A stretch of 64,000 nt of DNA from Shimia sp. SK013 (GTDB taxonomy: Bacteria > Pseudomonadota > Alphaproteobacteria > Rhodobacterales > Rhodobacteraceae). Below the pieces are notes generated by a model. The model saw only the letters and a list, made by a program, of their open reading frames with translations. It searched no databases and had not been told where the DNA came from. The DNA is taken from contig NZ_LAJH01000021.1 of NCBI RefSeq assembly GCF_001292625.1, positions 1-64,000 on the forward strand, in the 5' to 3' direction. The translations under genes were made by a program, and so were the position numbers. Of the stretch, positions 1-5,857 are shown one piece after another (the first letter of the stretch is position 1; each line of letters opens with the position of its first letter).

Positions 1-1
1 A

Positions 2-145
2 GGCGGGCATTCGTCTGGCAAGGATCACCCGTCATGGCGGCATGGAATGCGGTCGAGGGAATGGATCGAGACAAGAGCGGAGATCAACGATCTGGTGCGA
101 GAGGTTAATAAGTACGAACCATTGGCATTCGGCGATCCGGAATGA
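2..145 (+). CDS. C-terminal fragment of a small unknown protein (5' end outside window)
   Basis: An open frame enters from the left edge and stops at a TGA at 143-145, giving about 47 residues. It reads as a basic stretch with HGMRSREWIETRAEIND, followed by LVREVNKYEPLAFGDPE. The HGM-x-S-x-E-x-x-x-x-R spacing recalls a family of short alphaproteobacterial proteins with a KHG-x-[YR]-[ST]-x-E motif before an arginine-rich helix, but this is recognition by eye and no function is implied. The beginning of the gene lies outside the window. It is the leftmost trace of the accessory segment that carries the ATPase/protease pair. Confidence 0.4.
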   Translation, partial: GGHSSGKDHPSWRHGMRSREWIETRAEINDLVREVNKYEPLAFGDPE

Positions 146-520
146 ACCGACTGCTGGTTCAGAAATCGAGGAGCTGGAGCGAGTCGCTTTTTTTACGTTG
201 GTGGTTTTGCGCGACTATCTTGTTTGGGCTGCCTGCCGTCATCTGGCGGCAGGGTCTGGGTACCGCTTTGCAGCAATATTGCTGCCGCGCCGCCGCAAGT
301 CGGCTATCAGCCTAAATATGACCAATGCTGCCTCATCCCTCGACGACAGCTATGCGCAGGAGGTGACCTTTGCAAAGCATGGCGAACGGCCCCAACCTTA
401 CATTGACCGTGTCACATTTTCTGCGATGCAGCACCACGAAAGTGGCGCGCAATCCCTCCATATTGAACTGGGCTGCCATGCGAAAGTTCTGCGGAAGTCA
501 CATTTTTTTGGTATATTTTT
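146..520. other. Intergenic stretch without a recognised gene
   Basis: A 173-residue frame crosses this stretch (42-563, plus), but its protein sequence has no recognisable domain, has a composition typical of non-coding frames, and has no ribosome-binding site before its ATG. The DNA becomes strongly A+T-rich after about 495, as expected ahead of a promoter. It may hold decayed mobile DNA, but no inverted repeats or transposase motifs could be shown. Confidence 0.4.
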
Positions 521-548
521 TTGGCCTATGGTGCGATCTCTGTATAGT
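521..548 (+). promoter_or_regulatory. Candidate sigma-70-type promoter of the ATPase/protease pair
   Basis: TTGGCC at 521-526 and TATAGT at 543-548 are separated by 16 bases, within a T-rich tract and about 50 bases ahead of the ATPase ATG at 597. The -10 match is good and the -35 match moderate. This is a sequence-pattern call only. Confidence 0.3.
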
Positions 549-596
549 GTGTACTCATTGTAAAACGACATATTGTTGAGACAAGCAGTAGGGCCG

Positions 597-1679
597 ATGG
601 CATCCGCACAACAACTCATTGGGCTTGTAAAAAGCCATGCAGAGGGAGACGCTGATCGATTTTTTGATCTGGCTATGCAACTCTCTGCGAGTGAAGAGCA
701 GAAGGGACACACCCGTCTTGCGGAACAATTGCGTCAATGGGCCGAGGCGGGTCAAACGGCTCCCACGTCGCGCGTACCGGAAGTTACGCCTTTAGCAGCA
801 CCTCGTGGAGATCTAGCAGAATTTCTAGCCGCCAGTTATCCGACCGAACGGCTGAATGATTTAATCCTACCTGCGAGCATCGAAGGTGAGCTTGCGCATA
901 TTGTCGTTGAGACGAAGATGCGCGAAAAATTAGAAGAAAAAGGTCTAAAGCCTCGTCGCCGCGTTCTCCTATCGGGCCCGCCTGGGACCGGTAAATCGAT
1001 GAGCGCATCTGCATTGGCTGGTGAGCTACAATTTCCGCTTTTTTCTGTCATGCTTCATGGGCTGATCACGAAGTTCATGGGTGAGACAGCTCAAAAGCTG
1101 AAAATGGTTTTTGATGCAGTTAAGACAACGCGGGGTGTCTATCTTTTTGATGAAATCGATGCGCTTGCCGCCGCCCGAGAAGGCGGAAACGACGTTGGCG
1201 AAGCCCGCCGAGTTCTAAATTCGTTCCTCCAGTTTCTCGATGAGGACACTGGTCCTTCTATCATAATTGCGACAACAAATTTACCAGGTATCTTGGATCG
1301 CGCTGTTTTGCGGCGCTTTGACCTCGTACTGCCTTATGAAATGCCTGACGCTGCGTCAATTCGCGAGGCCATTGAACGCCGTTTGATCGGTTTCAAAACT
1401 GGCGATATGGCTTGGAGAAAAATTACAGATAGTGCCTTGAGCTTATCGACAGCTGACGTTGTTGCGGCAGCCGAGGACGCAGCACGCCGCGCGGTATTAG
1501 CGGACAAAGAAACAATTGCGACACAGGATTTGATGGATGCCCTTGAACGCCGTCGTTCGCTGCAAGAATTAGGGACGGACGCCTATGGCACGGGACAAGC
1601 TACATTTTCATCTTCGAAACCTCGGGACAGCGCACAGGTTCCGAGAAAAGCGCGGGGGCGGAGGAAGGCAAGTAAGTAA
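597..1679 (+). CDS. ietA: AAA+ ATPase, IetA-like component of an IetAS-type system
   Basis: A 360-residue AAA+ ATPase. The N-terminal 100 residues are helical and unassigned. Then come Walker A GPPGTGKS (about residues 127-134), Walker B VYLFDEID (181-188), a sensor-1-like IIIATTN (223-227) and an RRFD arginine-finger region (239-242), followed by a C-terminal AAA lid and a basic tail. A TTG at 573 would add eight residues; the ATG at 597 is preferred. The end of the gene overlaps the start of a subtilisin-like protease gene by 95 bases. That pairing is the hallmark of IetA/IetS, first described as a stability and incompatibility module on an Agrobacterium Ti plasmid and later found among anti-phage systems. 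Presumably the ATPase restrains or delivers substrates to the protease. Family pairing is clear; activity here is inferred. Confidence 0.75.
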   Translation: MASAQQLIGLVKSHAEGDADRFFDLAMQLSASEEQKGHTRLAEQLRQWAEAGQTAPTSRVPEVTPLAAPRGDLAEFLAASYPTERLNDLILPASIEGELAHIVVETKMREKLEEKGLKPRRRVLLSGPPGTGKSMSASALAGELQFPLFSVMLHGLITKFMGETAQKLKMVFDAVKTTRGVYLFDEIDALAAAREGGNDVGEARRVLNSFLQFLDEDTGPSIIIATTNLPGILDRAVLRRFDLVLPYEMPDAASIREAIERRLIGFKTGDMAWRKITDSALSLSTADVVAAAEDAARRAVLADKETIATQDLMDALERRRSLQELGTDAYGTGQATFSSSKPRDSAQVPRKARGRRKASK

Positions 1680-4050
1680 TGTTCTCAACCGAGCAGCACA
1701 TGCACAAGTTCTCCTACAAGCAATCGATGCGTTGCCTGATATCCAAGCAGACGGCCTCCCAGGCGTCTATTTGGAGGTTACTGCACCCGCAAATGAACCA
1801 CTAAAGAAAGACAGCCTCAATAAGAGCGATCTAACGCTTTTGCATTATGACGAAGGTGCACGCAGTCTGACCAACCAAGAGACAGCGACAGTCTACGCAA
1901 CCGCCTCAGCAATCGGAAAATTACGCACCAAAGTCACGCAGTTTGAGACGGAAGACACCCCGGATCGTGAAAAAGACGGTCAAATCATTCCAGGCCGGCC
2001 AAAGAACGCGGATCTTATTCAAAGCATTGCGACACTCACAGAGGCGGGATTACGCGCCCTATGGCGCAGCCCTGACGATAAGTTCCCACAAACGCAAACA
2101 GCAACAAACTGGGAACTATGGCTAGACCGAGAAGCTGCTGACGCATTTGTCCTTGGAGCCCAAGCCTACGATGTTGCCATTGGCGAAGAACAGCTTGAGT
2201 TCCCCGAAGATATTGTCGTCATTGCACATGGAACCCGTGACGCCCTTGCGAACGCTATCCGACATCTGCGCGGTGTTAAAGCCATGGCAGCGCCAACGAT
2301 CACAGCAGACTTTTTCGCTGGGGGCGATGTCATCGAGCAAGCGCAATGGGTTGACGAGTTGCGGAATCGAACAACGTACCCGGCCCATGCAGACCCGGGA
2401 TATGTGACACTTTTAGACACGGGCGTTAGTCGGGCACATCCATTGGTGCAACCAGCCCTTGAGGTCGCCGATCGCCACGCCGCCAATCCCGCGTGGGGAC
2501 TAGAAGACATTCGCGGTCACGGCACACATATGGCTGGACTGGCACTATTAGGGGATCTTACCTCCTGCCTCCATCAAACAAACCCCGTCACCGTATCAAA
2601 TCGCTTAGAATCTGTTAAACTGAAACCAGATACTGGCGAGAACCCTCATCACCTGTTTGGTGCCGTCACACGTGGCGGGGTGAATACAGTTGAGCAGACT
2701 CATCCACGTCGTCGGACTTTCACCATGCCGATCACCACCGGAGCAGACACGCCCCATGACGGTGCTCCCACGTCATGGTCCAGCGAAATAGATCAATTGG
2801 CGTCAGGAGCATCTGGTAATCGTGATCTCAAACGGCTTATGCTCATTTCAGCAGGGAACACCGACAATTTCAGTTTCGGCGCAGGGCAATATCTTGACCG
2901 ATGCGATCATGAAGATAACGAAATTCAGTCTCCTGCCCAGGCGTGGAACGCTGTCGCAGTTGGTGCATTTACGGAGAAAACGGTTCTCCCCGACAACGAA
3001 GCAGCAACGGCTTTAGCTCCATTTGGAGACTTGTCGCCGTCCTCTCGTACCGCATCTTGGACATCATATTGGCCATTAAAACCTGATGTTGTGCTTGAAG
3101 GTGGCAACTGGGCAAGCAGCGCGTTTCCACCACCAATGAGACATGGGTATCTGTCGCTATTGTCGACCCATCACAACTATCCTGTCCGCTCTCTTACCTT
3201 CACATACGATACTAGTGCGGCAACTGCATTGGCCGCAAAGGGCATTACGGAGCTATGGTCTGACTATCCCGATCTGTGGCCCGAAACGATCCGAGGCTTG
3301 TACGTCTCTTCTGCAAGATGGACCCCGCAAATGCGATCGCATTTGCCCGTCGCGCATAACAAGGGCAATTATGCCCCCCTATTTCAACGCTATGGGTACG
3401 GCGTCCCTAACCTTAAACGTGCGCGGCGCAGTGCGTCCAACGCACTAACACTGATCGTCGAAGATACAATTACCCCCTATGGCTTGTCTGACGACGGCAA
3501 ACGAGGCGTCGACAATGAGATGAAACTATTCACCCTTCCATGGCCTGTCGAAGAACTACGTCGGCTTGGAAATACGGACGTCACTTTGCGTGTGACCTTG
3601 AGTTCTTTCATTGAGCCCAATCCATCAGAAGCGGCCAGAGGGTCGCGCTATCGCTATGCCTCTCATAATCTGCGTTTCAAACTAAACCGTGCAGATGAAG
3701 CCGCCCCTCACTTTATGGCGCGCATCAGTAAATTGGCGGCACAACCCGCTGGCCCAGCAAGCAATGAATCCGATGGGTGGGACTACGGGAGCGACCGCCG
3801 CGACGTCGGATCTCTCCACATTGATCAACTTACCTGCCGCGCATCCGATCTTGCTCGTCGCAACCTCATCGCCGTGCATCCGGTGAATGGATGGTGGAAA
3901 ACAAAGTCGCTTTTGAACGGAGACCCGCCATCAGTGCGCTTTGCGCTTATCGTTGAGATTGATGCGGAACACATTGAAGCTGAACTCCACGCTGAAGTTC
4001 AATCGGCAATTGCAGCTTCGGTTGCGACGCAGACTGTTATCGCGCTGTAG
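1585..4050 (+). CDS. ietS: Subtilisin-like S8 serine protease, IetS-like component
   Basis: An 821-residue cytoplasmic-type S8 peptidase with no signal peptide. The triad can be read as Asp278 in LLDTG, His312 in GHGTHMAG and Ser544 in YDTSAATALAAKG; the usual GTS before the serine is DTS here. The oxyanion Asn lies in LISAGNTDN. A variable N-terminal domain of about 270 residues precedes the catalytic domain, and about 220 residues of unassigned C-terminal domain follow. The start at 1585 lies inside the ATPase gene in another frame; it is kept because the N-terminal residues (a beta-like FHL segment followed by a glycine-rich turn) resemble the usual start of this family. The 95-base overlap implies translational coupling. 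In known IetAS pairs the protease is regarded as the toxic or effector partner. Confidence 0.78.
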   Translation: MARDKLHFHLRNLGTAHRFREKRGGGGRQVSNVLNRAAHAQVLLQAIDALPDIQADGLPGVYLEVTAPANEPLKKDSLNKSDLTLLHYDEGARSLTNQETATVYATASAIGKLRTKVTQFETEDTPDREKDGQIIPGRPKNADLIQSIATLTEAGLRALWRSPDDKFPQTQTATNWELWLDREAADAFVLGAQAYDVAIGEEQLEFPEDIVVIAHGTRDALANAIRHLRGVKAMAAPTITADFFAGGDVIEQAQWVDELRNRTTYPAHADPGYVTLLDTGVSRAHPLVQPALEVADRHAANPAWGLEDIRGHGTHMAGLALLGDLTSCLHQTNPVTVSNRLESVKLKPDTGENPHHLFGAVTRGGVNTVEQTHPRRRTFTMPITTGADTPHDGAPTSWSSEIDQLASGASGNRDLKRLMLISAGNTDNFSFGAGQYLDRCDHEDNEIQSPAQAWNAVAVGAFTEKTVLPDNEAATALAPFGDLSPSSRTASWTSYWPLKPDVVLEGGNWASSAFPPPMRHGYLSLLSTHHNYPVRSLTFTYDTSAATALAAKGITELWSDYPDLWPETIRGLYVSSARWTPQMRSHLPVAHNKGNYAPLFQRYGYGVPNLKRARRSASNALTLIVEDTITPYGLSDDGKRGVDNEMKLFTLPWPVEELRRLGNTDVTLRVTLSSFIEPNPSEAARGSRYRYASHNLRFKLNRADEAAPHFMARISKLAAQPAGPASNESDGWDYGSDRRDVGSLHIDQLTCRASDLARRNLIAVHPVNGWWKTKSLLNGDPPSVRFALIVEIDAEHIEAELHAEVQSAIAASVATQTVIAL

Positions 4051-4126
4051 ACCATACATTATGAGTATATGTATGGTGTTGCTCAGTTTTAGGCAAATCA
4101 CCGAATGTTAATTAGGCAAAGAACTT

Positions 4127-4579
4127 TTGACAAAAACAGCCGTCATAGGCCAATTGTGTTCAGATTTCCACCGCACGTTGTGGTTTCTGAATAACAACGC
4201 CCGAGCTTCCCGGTTGCCGTGGCTCAACTCATTTCCAAGAAACAGCTGTGAGGCTGCATCGTCATATTTAGCTAGGGCTTTGGAAAAACGGCACCCTGAG
4301 CTCAAAATATCGGTCTTGAAAGGAAGTGGCTCAAGAGGAATTCACTTCTGGGTAGAAGCAGGGGAATACGTGATGGACCTTACTGTCGACCCATTTGATG
4401 AGAACAGGCTCCCTTTCTTTGATTTTGCGCCACACCCTTCTCAAGAGTTATTTACCGAGCTTGAGCGTATGAGCCCTGAGACAGCCTGGGTAAATCTGGG
4501 CACTGGTTGCCAAGTCTTTTTGGACTCGTTGCTGCAAAGTCTTTTGGGATCAAATCAACTTATTGATCAACGGGATTAG
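4127..4579 (+). CDS. Small transglutaminase-like (Cys-His-Asp) protein, function unknown
   Basis: A 150-residue protein. The order FPRNSCEAAS (Cys41), then a helix, a spacer and GIHFWVEAGEYVMDLTVDPFD (His73, Asp84 or Asp88) fits the papain/transglutaminase-like fold, in which a Cys at a helix start is followed by His and Asp on adjacent strands. No signal peptide or membrane segment is seen, so it is probably cytoplasmic. The start is uncertain: a TTG at 4127 is the only early in-frame start codon after a stop at 4109, and no strong ribosome-binding site precedes it. It follows the ATPase/protease pair on the same strand after 76 bases, so it could be an added component of that module or simple island cargo. 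Some members of such families occur in conflict systems, but no specific substrate can be assigned. Confidence 0.55.
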   Translation: MTKTAVIGQLCSDFHRTLWFLNNNARASRLPWLNSFPRNSCEAASSYLARALEKRHPELKISVLKGSGSRGIHFWVEAGEYVMDLTVDPFDENRLPFFDFAPHPSQELFTELERMSPETAWVNLGTGCQVFLDSLLQSLLGSNQLIDQRD

Positions 4580-4861
4580 CCTAACAAAAGGAAATGAACG
4601 CGATTTCAGCGAAGATCTCCTTTCCGCCCGACCTTCATAAAAGTCTATGTTCGATTCGAACTGCTTTGGGCTTGGTTGTCTGCGTGCTTTGCAATGGTCG
4701 CTGATAACCATCGCCGCCCTTAGTAGTGCACTGTAGCGTAGGTGGGCTTCCCGCCCCCATTGGGCAAACTGATCAAGTCCGCTTTGAGCGGGCAGCTGAC
4801 GTCAAAGGAGCTCGCCGGCACCACTCGGCTTAAACCTGACCAAGAAACAAGTTCTTAGCTA

Positions 4862-5287
4862 TTATGTAATTGCAATGACTATGCTGACCACTCCCAAAGC
4901 CAAAGAGACGAGCGCTAGGCATGCGGAGACTCTGATAAGTGGATCGGAAACCGTAAGGTACCAATACAGGATGCTTATTGGTCCACATTTTACTACTTCA
5001 ATTAGAGCTTCCTGTTCGGCCTTAAGGTTCAAATGCTTCCGCAGATCGTAGTCCAATTTGATAATGGACTCGTCATCATAGTGACCAACAACGGCCGCGT
5101 ATGCCGTTAATCCTTCGGGCGCTGTCAGCCGGACTATTTGAAAGCGTTTTGTTCCATCTCGCCTTTTATAGTTGATGAGCGCACGTCCCCGTCCAGCGTG
5201 TTTGTCTGGACATTTCTTTACAGTGAACCTGTAAGTTTTGTCGTGTTTCACAATTACTCCTGGAAAAAAATCTGGCACGTTTCCCAT
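4862..5287 (-). CDS. Small C-terminally membrane-anchored protein of unknown function
   Basis: A 141-residue protein read from the ATG at 5287, chosen because TAGGAG lies eight bases ahead; an upstream ATG at 5338 lacks such a site. The first 100 residues are soluble and rich in charged residues, with a basic GRGRALINYKRRDG segment and an acidic YDDESIIKLDYDLRK segment. The last 34 residues contain a hydrophobic stretch (ACLALVSLALGVVSIVIAIT) that should form one membrane helix at the extreme C-terminus, preceded by a short amphipathic segment. I recognise a loose resemblance to unnamed alphaproteobacterial proteins ending in a similar anchor, but no domain name. It is convergent with the Cys-His-Asp gene. 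In a defence setting a tail-anchored small protein could be an effector, which is speculation. Confidence 0.5.
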   Translation of the reverse strand: MGNVPDFFPGVIVKHDKTYRFTVKKCPDKHAGRGRALINYKRRDGTKRFQIVRLTAPEGLTAYAAVVGHYDDESIIKLDYDLRKHLNLKAEQEALIEVVKCGPISILYWYLTVSDPLIRVSACLALVSLALGVVSIVIAIT

Positions 5288-5781
5288 GCAACGGTCTCCT
5301 ACGCTCCATGATAGCTCGCATCCAAGAAGGTCTAGCAACCATAGATCTAATCGATTTCTTCACAAGTCACATAATAATACCCAATTTCCTCAATAGATCT
5401 TCGAAGGACATGGCTCGCCTAGATTTAGCGAGCCGCCACCGAGCTCTCAGATTTTGCAATCCTCTGGCGTTGGCCATGACCGCTTCAGGCTGGGAGCAGA
5501 CACTTGACGTGATCTTTGCAAAGTCGTCGTGATAGTTGGAGCTACCGCGTTTGCCCGGGCTAGGTGGTGCAGTGAAGGCGATTAGATACCGATCCCTGGT
5601 GTTACAACTTCTGTCGCGACGGGCTGCACTCGGCCAAAGCCATGCTCAATTCCAAATATAGCCTTCCAGTGAATACGCTAAAACACTGACCCACCATGGG
5701 TGTTAAGGGCGATATTTGGGGGGATATCAATCGACTTAATCTTAAATTATCATTCAAATTCAGTAGATTATATCATACTTA
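5288..5781. other. Gene-poor junction between the accessory segment and tRNA-Thr
   Basis: About 490 bases with no convincing gene. A 74-codon plus-strand frame at 5308-5532 overlaps the 5' region of the membrane protein and has no recognisable motif or ribosome-binding site. Fragments around 5570-5700 look like decayed coding DNA with several in-frame stops. The stretch from 5740 on is A+T-rich and directly abuts the 3' end of the tRNA, where an integrated element would be expected to end. No second copy of the tRNA 3' end was found in the window. Confidence 0.4.
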
Positions 5782-5857
5782 TGGTGCCTCAAGAGGGACT
5801 CGAACCCCCGACCTTGTCCTTACGAAGGACCTGCTCTACCAGCTGAGCTATTGAGGC
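5782..5857 (-). tRNA. tRNA-Thr (anticodon CGT)
   Basis: Read on the minus strand, the 76-base sequence folds as a cloverleaf: a perfect seven-base-pair acceptor stem GCCTCAA/TTGAGGC, a D arm with AGCTGGTAGA, an anticodon loop TTCGTAA giving CGT, a T arm with TTCGAGT between GGGGG and CCCTC, and an encoded CCA end. The first anticodon-stem pair looks like a G-A mismatch. CGT reads ACG threonine codons. Its 3' end points toward the accessory segment at 1-5.7 kb, the side at which integrases insert DNA. Confidence 0.93.

Follow-up and report, generated by a model that had tools for sequence, protein, structure and literature searches.

We identified an IetA-type AAA+ ATPase gene and an overlapping IetS-type subtilisin gene near the start of the window (the whole 64,000-nucleotide stretch of Shimia sp. 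SK013 DNA analysed here). Very probably, these genes form an ordinary two-gene IetAS module on a probable tRNA-Thr genomic island, and the papain/transglutaminase-like gene beside them is independently acquired cargo. This explanation draws on gene content, catalytic residues, a fixed gene overlap and the island context, all of which are seen in the DNA; the toxicity, control and defence that it attributes to the module are putative.

The IetA and IetS genes

The open reading frame of IetA spans 573-1679 on the forward strand, and encodes 368 amino acids if read from a TTG codon at 573. The start is likely the ATG at 597 (giving a gene at 597..1679), because most relatives align from residue 9 and two DNA matches from the same genus start at base 598. 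IetS, an S8 (subtilisin) peptidase of 821 amino acids, is encoded at 1585..4050 on the same strand. The preliminary description reported an overlap of 95 bases between the two genes, and the coordinates (1585-1679) agree. The same length was found in 32 of 33 relatives measured, close relatives included, and the remaining one has an overlap of 92 bases. Position 521, where the displayed piece begins, coincides with a promoter-like site, of a kind that occurs in the sequence at chance frequency (7 found versus 5.4 expected, sd 2.1).

The earlier assignment of this pair to IetAS is upheld by an adjacent, overlapping arrangement and by matches to the PADLOC models for IetA (3.6e-66) and IetS (3.6e-25), as well as by the presence of the expected motifs. 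The Walker A sequence GPPGTGKS lies at residue 135 of the 368-residue IetA frame. IetS residues D278, H312 and S544 are retained in all alignment rows that cover each site (46, 46 and 44 of 50 rows, respectively, the other rows not reaching the site concerned). Pfam places the proteins in the AAA (1.9e-29) and Peptidase_S8 (2e-42) families. IetAS systems have anti-phage activity, as is implied by their naming in PADLOC and NCBIfam.

The window pair resembles known IetAS (PADLOC PDLC04232/PDLC02196 for IetA and PDLC02198 for IetS; ietAS of pTiC58) in combining an AAA+ ATPase with an S8 protease, in its overlapping genes and in its mobile location. It differs in that both proteins score far under the cut-offs of the NCBIfam equivalogs IteA (189.5 versus 510 bits) and IteS (31.4 versus 900 bits). 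Thus, we file the pair under the broader PADLOC IetAS family rather than as IteA/IteS. Scores so far below the cut-offs of these models of the anti-phage pair mark the window pair as a divergent member of IetAS, whose function may be different.

Searches with IetS recovered 32 loci on genome contigs at 63-77% identity, 488 plasmid records (mostly below 60% identity) and one locus among viral contigs. IetA accompanies IetS in 38 of the 40 loci that were compared, and the remaining two start inside IetS. Matches to IetS occur in 10 of 295 sampled genomes of the family, including the genome studied here. The PADLOC IetS model was matched at E <= 1e-30 in 19 of 398 sampled genomes of the phylum; this genome is not one of them, as its divergent IetS does not reach that threshold. 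When DNA from 573-5781 was compared with 25 genomes of the genus, matches were found in the source genome and in two others, in which they comprise IetA and most of IetS only. In an uncultured Rhodobacteraceae bacterium (L055, 8001-12877), IetS is split into two matching parts separated by about 2.4 kb.

The small gene and its predicted active site

A gene for a YunG/transglutaminase-like (papain-like) protein of 150 amino acids is located at 4127..4579. It has a TTG start and follows IetS on the same strand after 76 bases, so its description as lying directly downstream was accurate. A profile of the family built without the window protein recovers that protein at 9.7e-16 among the frames of the window; thus, the gene is not a chance reading frame.

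At E <= 1, the window protein is unmatched in Pfam, PADLOC, NCBIfam and PHROGs alike. Used as a single query, it found no relative among viral contigs, phages or genome contigs, and five weak records among plasmids, from four of which relatives were taken. A scan of viral contigs for the pattern DITADQF returned 61 stretches, and in 42 of these a frame matches a five-member profile (E <= 1e-3). Ten near-identical loci of the family came from a separate scan. Among the 25 aligned members, 21 match phrog_26734 and 20 match YunG (PF24585) weakly (best 1.3e-5). The family thus resembles phrog_26734, YunG and the transglutaminase-like superfamily in having conserved Cys, His and Asp in the same order, and the window protein is distinguished by reaching none of these models. 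Searches of PDB sequences with the family returned nothing meaningful. On this sequence evidence, the small protein is a member of a diverse family found on phage, plasmid and chromosomal DNA.

The small protein has matches in 6 of 295 sampled family genomes and a convincing one in its own genome only. The other five hits (0.0045-0.01) were rejected, as L002-L007 contain no match to the 25-member profile at E <= 1. In the phylum, the family has matches in 7 of 398 sampled genomes, the source genome among them. The 51 neighbours of small-family genes are mixed and include no recurrent partner, with no Pfam family found in more than two. Methyltransferases rank first among their PADLOC matches and were seen in two members. 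One match, in an alphaproteobacterial genome (L025, G670), is broken by a TAG codon. In two similar viral contigs (L110, 2812-3735; L060, 4332-5258), the small-family domain lies at the end of a longer open frame (about 300 residues).

The preliminary description proposed a possible Cys41-His73-Asp84 triad. The residue numbers are right, and the proposal is backed by conservation and by the layout of the model. All three residues are invariant (5/5) in an alignment of five members that were not selected by motif. They are also invariant (25/25) in the larger alignment, in which the Asp was pre-selected, since the search pattern contained it for every member except two, and the Cys partly so, as the choice of members required one within a broad range. 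This pre-selection makes the larger alignment weaker evidence than it appears. Near-duplicates, judged by four-letter words, were left out of the 25, as were three sequences in which no Cys was detected in that interval, one being truncated where its contig ends. Of 30 members listed, the 6 weakest were kept out of the 25-row alignment, so that invariance of the Cys is partly due to choice.

The core of transglutaminase and papain-like proteins has an ordered Cys, His and Asp, with the Cys at the start of a helix and the His and Asp on strands. The AlphaFold2 model of the small protein is compact (mean pLDDT 80.8). In it, C41 opens a helix (41-55), H73 lies in a strand (71-78) and D84 ends another (81-84). 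By the preliminary description, a fold that shows no Cys-His-Asp site would have refuted its proposal, and the model is compatible with such a site. In a Foldseek search with the model, neither the PDB (best E of 0.17) nor a library of viral structures held a match at E <= 0.001. The top PDB entries include MepS (E of 0.17 and 0.23), PSL1a with E64 (0.34 and 0.48) and SpeB (0.97), together with unrelated folds (e.g., a DH-PH-PH domain, 0.48). In the viral library, a phage protein named as a transglutaminase-like cysteine proteinase ranks sixth (0.12), below unnamed or uncharacterised proteins. These structural matches agree with a transglutaminase/papain-like fold, short of proof. From alignments and model together, the small protein is probably a small thiol hydrolase or acyltransferase.

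Association of the small gene with IetAS

It had been suggested that the small gene, if constant across genomes, would make this a variant three-gene system, and the loci examined did not bear this out. The 25-member profile has no match at E <= 1 in six-frame translations of 64 IetS loci, which include the 32 at 63-77% identity. A profile of the same kind, built without the window protein, does find that protein, so that the comparison could see such a gene. The 64 loci came from the family, genome-contig, viral and phylum searches, and some are partial or duplicate. Many extend only about 1.5 kb past IetS. After removal of duplicates and partial matches, 48 loci reach the IetS C-terminus, with at least 200 downstream bases in 47, at least 650 in 44 and at least 4,000 in 17. 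Outside the 48 are nine loci that repeat the last 300 bases of IetS from an earlier locus, one with no tblastn match (L160) and six whose match ends before residue 700. The frequency with which the small gene follows the protease within 200 bases, the measure on which the three-gene proposal depended, is thus 0 of 64 loci, with 47 of the 48 covering that distance.

The reverse comparison gave a similar result. IetA and IetS were searched against 83 candidate loci of the small gene (68 of which match the small family), and nothing was found at E <= 1e-3. Two genomes of the same genus carry IetAS, on the same DNA as two of the genome-contig loci (L037 and L038, which equal L172 and L171). In G1025, 4,641 bases follow IetS and contain no match to the small family; the contig of G1029 stops 266 bases beyond IetS and is uninformative, leaving one informative genome. 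In the collection of papers searched, we found none linking IetAS, or a AAA/subtilisin pair, to a transglutaminase. The interval between IetS and the small gene has no convincing terminator: a hairpin at 4051-4077 has a z of -1.97 when taken by itself and of -0.88 within a longer segment, and is absent from the terminator scan. In the loci examined, the small gene appears from sequence comparison to lie outside the IetAS module, and a three-gene system is not supported. A lack of association with the pair in other genomes was the result that the preliminary description named as refuting its proposal, and it was obtained in both directions here, in the family sample and in the one informative genome of the genus.

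The frame nearest after IetS differs among loci. In six, it is a protein encoded on the opposite strand, and the example scanned (L030) is a DUF736 protein. In eight others, a same-strand frame is nearest; we infer that this is a reverse reading of the opposite-strand gene, because both readings overlap in L171. The commonest neighbour of IetS is therefore a convergent gene, probably of the plasmid backbone, rather than a third IetAS gene. A further 16 frames occur once each. A frame of 190 amino acids lies 106 bases after IetS in four loci (L028, L040, L041 and L049), and the one scanned has no Pfam match; it could belong to the backbone of a plasmid or be a genuine companion.

Other explanations for the small gene can be weighed against these results. 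A lineage-specific three-gene IetAS, in which a co-transcribed thiol enzyme would modify or trim IetS, IetA or their target, is in keeping with the shared strand, the 76-base gap with no clear terminator and the intact predicted catalytic site. We nevertheless consider it very unlikely given the lack of small-family matches in the 64 IetS loci, including the close ones, their absence after IetAS of the one informative same-genus genome, and the unrelated contexts that the family occupies. Much the same low probability attaches to the idea that, recently and in this lineage alone, an IetAS operon recruited a transglutaminase-like enzyme of phage type, which would modify IetS or its target and change the trigger of the system.

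The small gene might instead be a counter-defence or immunity gene that came from a phage or a competing element, was captured next to IetAS and dampens it. Matches to the family in 42 of 61 viral stretches, and to phrog_26734 in 21 of 25 aligned members, would suit a phage origin, but IetA and IetS were unmatched near all 83 candidate loci and the model matches nothing at E <= 0.001 in either structure library (PDB or viral); this explanation is highly improbable. A decaying remnant with no function is unlikely rather than remote. The window motif has diverged (DLTVDPF versus DITADQF in most relatives), the start codon is TTG and the GC content is low (0.475 versus 0.569 for 5782-64000); however, the frame is open over its full length, the Cys, His and Asp are kept and the predicted structure is compact (mean pLDDT as given above). 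An ordinary two-gene IetAS with an independent cargo gene is the explanation that we prefer.

A probable island at tRNA-Thr

Positions 1-5781, with a GC content of 0.512 versus 0.569 for the rest of the window, are probable island cargo at the 3' end of a tRNA-Thr gene (CGT anticodon; 5782..5857, reverse strand). The end of this tRNA (5782-5795) is the likely attachment core and would mark the right end of the island. In another genome of the genus (G210), a kinase-like gene, tRNA-Thr and a metallophosphatase-like gene are contiguous (both protein names were read from sequence rather than from a family search). In the genome studied here, the kinase side is on a different contig (C6), which ends 739 bases past the match. 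There, 77 bases after the kinase stop codon, in the syntenic left flank, is a 14-base sequence identical to the 3' end of the window's tRNA-Thr. Next comes the frame of a tyrosine integrase (Arm-DNA-bind_3, 9.1e-17), which is cut off by the end of the contig. By itself the 14-base match is weak (E of 0.12), but its position, the integrase and the tRNA-Thr of G210, which differs at 7 of these 14 bases, make duplication by integration likely.

Two contigs share the island between them, and the joining of C6 to the contig of the window (C21) is an inferred step. The integrase and the complete tRNA are at opposite ends of the island, an unusual order. The window's contig opens with a repeat (1..103) that is common to the start of C6, with 101 of 103 bases identical. 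Near this repeat, C6 has a gene for an NYN-domain protein and a tRNA-Leu within 3.2 kb, possibly a second island.

A further gene of probable cargo, at 4862..5338 on the reverse strand, encodes a CDC48_N-like domain (4.1e-6, below the Pfam cut-off) and a hydrophobic C-terminal segment, identified by eye; no ATPase domain was matched. It was considered as a companion of IetAS and rejected, as it has no match in the frames of the 64 IetS loci.

One report describes SgiAT (S026-S025), the homologous pair of Salmonella genomic island 1, as a toxin-antitoxin pair with a subtilisin-like toxin and an AAA-ATPase antitoxin, closest to IetAS of pTiC58 (PMC5006074). SgiAT resembles the window pair in joining a AAA-ATPase with a subtilisin-like protein on an integrative element; it differs in that the element studied here is a probable tRNA-Thr island and the toxicity of its pair is putative. 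A 2023 paper states that how ietAS works has yet to be described, and reports that 91% of positive S. Typhimurium genomes have the reference ietAS together with one integrase (PMC9958689).

By analogy with SgiAT, the IetS of the window would be a subtilisin-type protease whose toxicity is held in check by IetA, the AAA+ ATPase. Their action would help to maintain the mobile element in its host cell, and protection from phage is possible, as PADLOC files the pair. The small protein would be an independent thiol enzyme that acts alone, rather than a subunit of IetAS.

These results remove a proposed three-gene defence variant and add an IetAS module with a defined tRNA-Thr island context. The small protein connects a gene of an alphaproteobacterial island to an uncharacterised phage and plasmid family with a predicted thiol active site.
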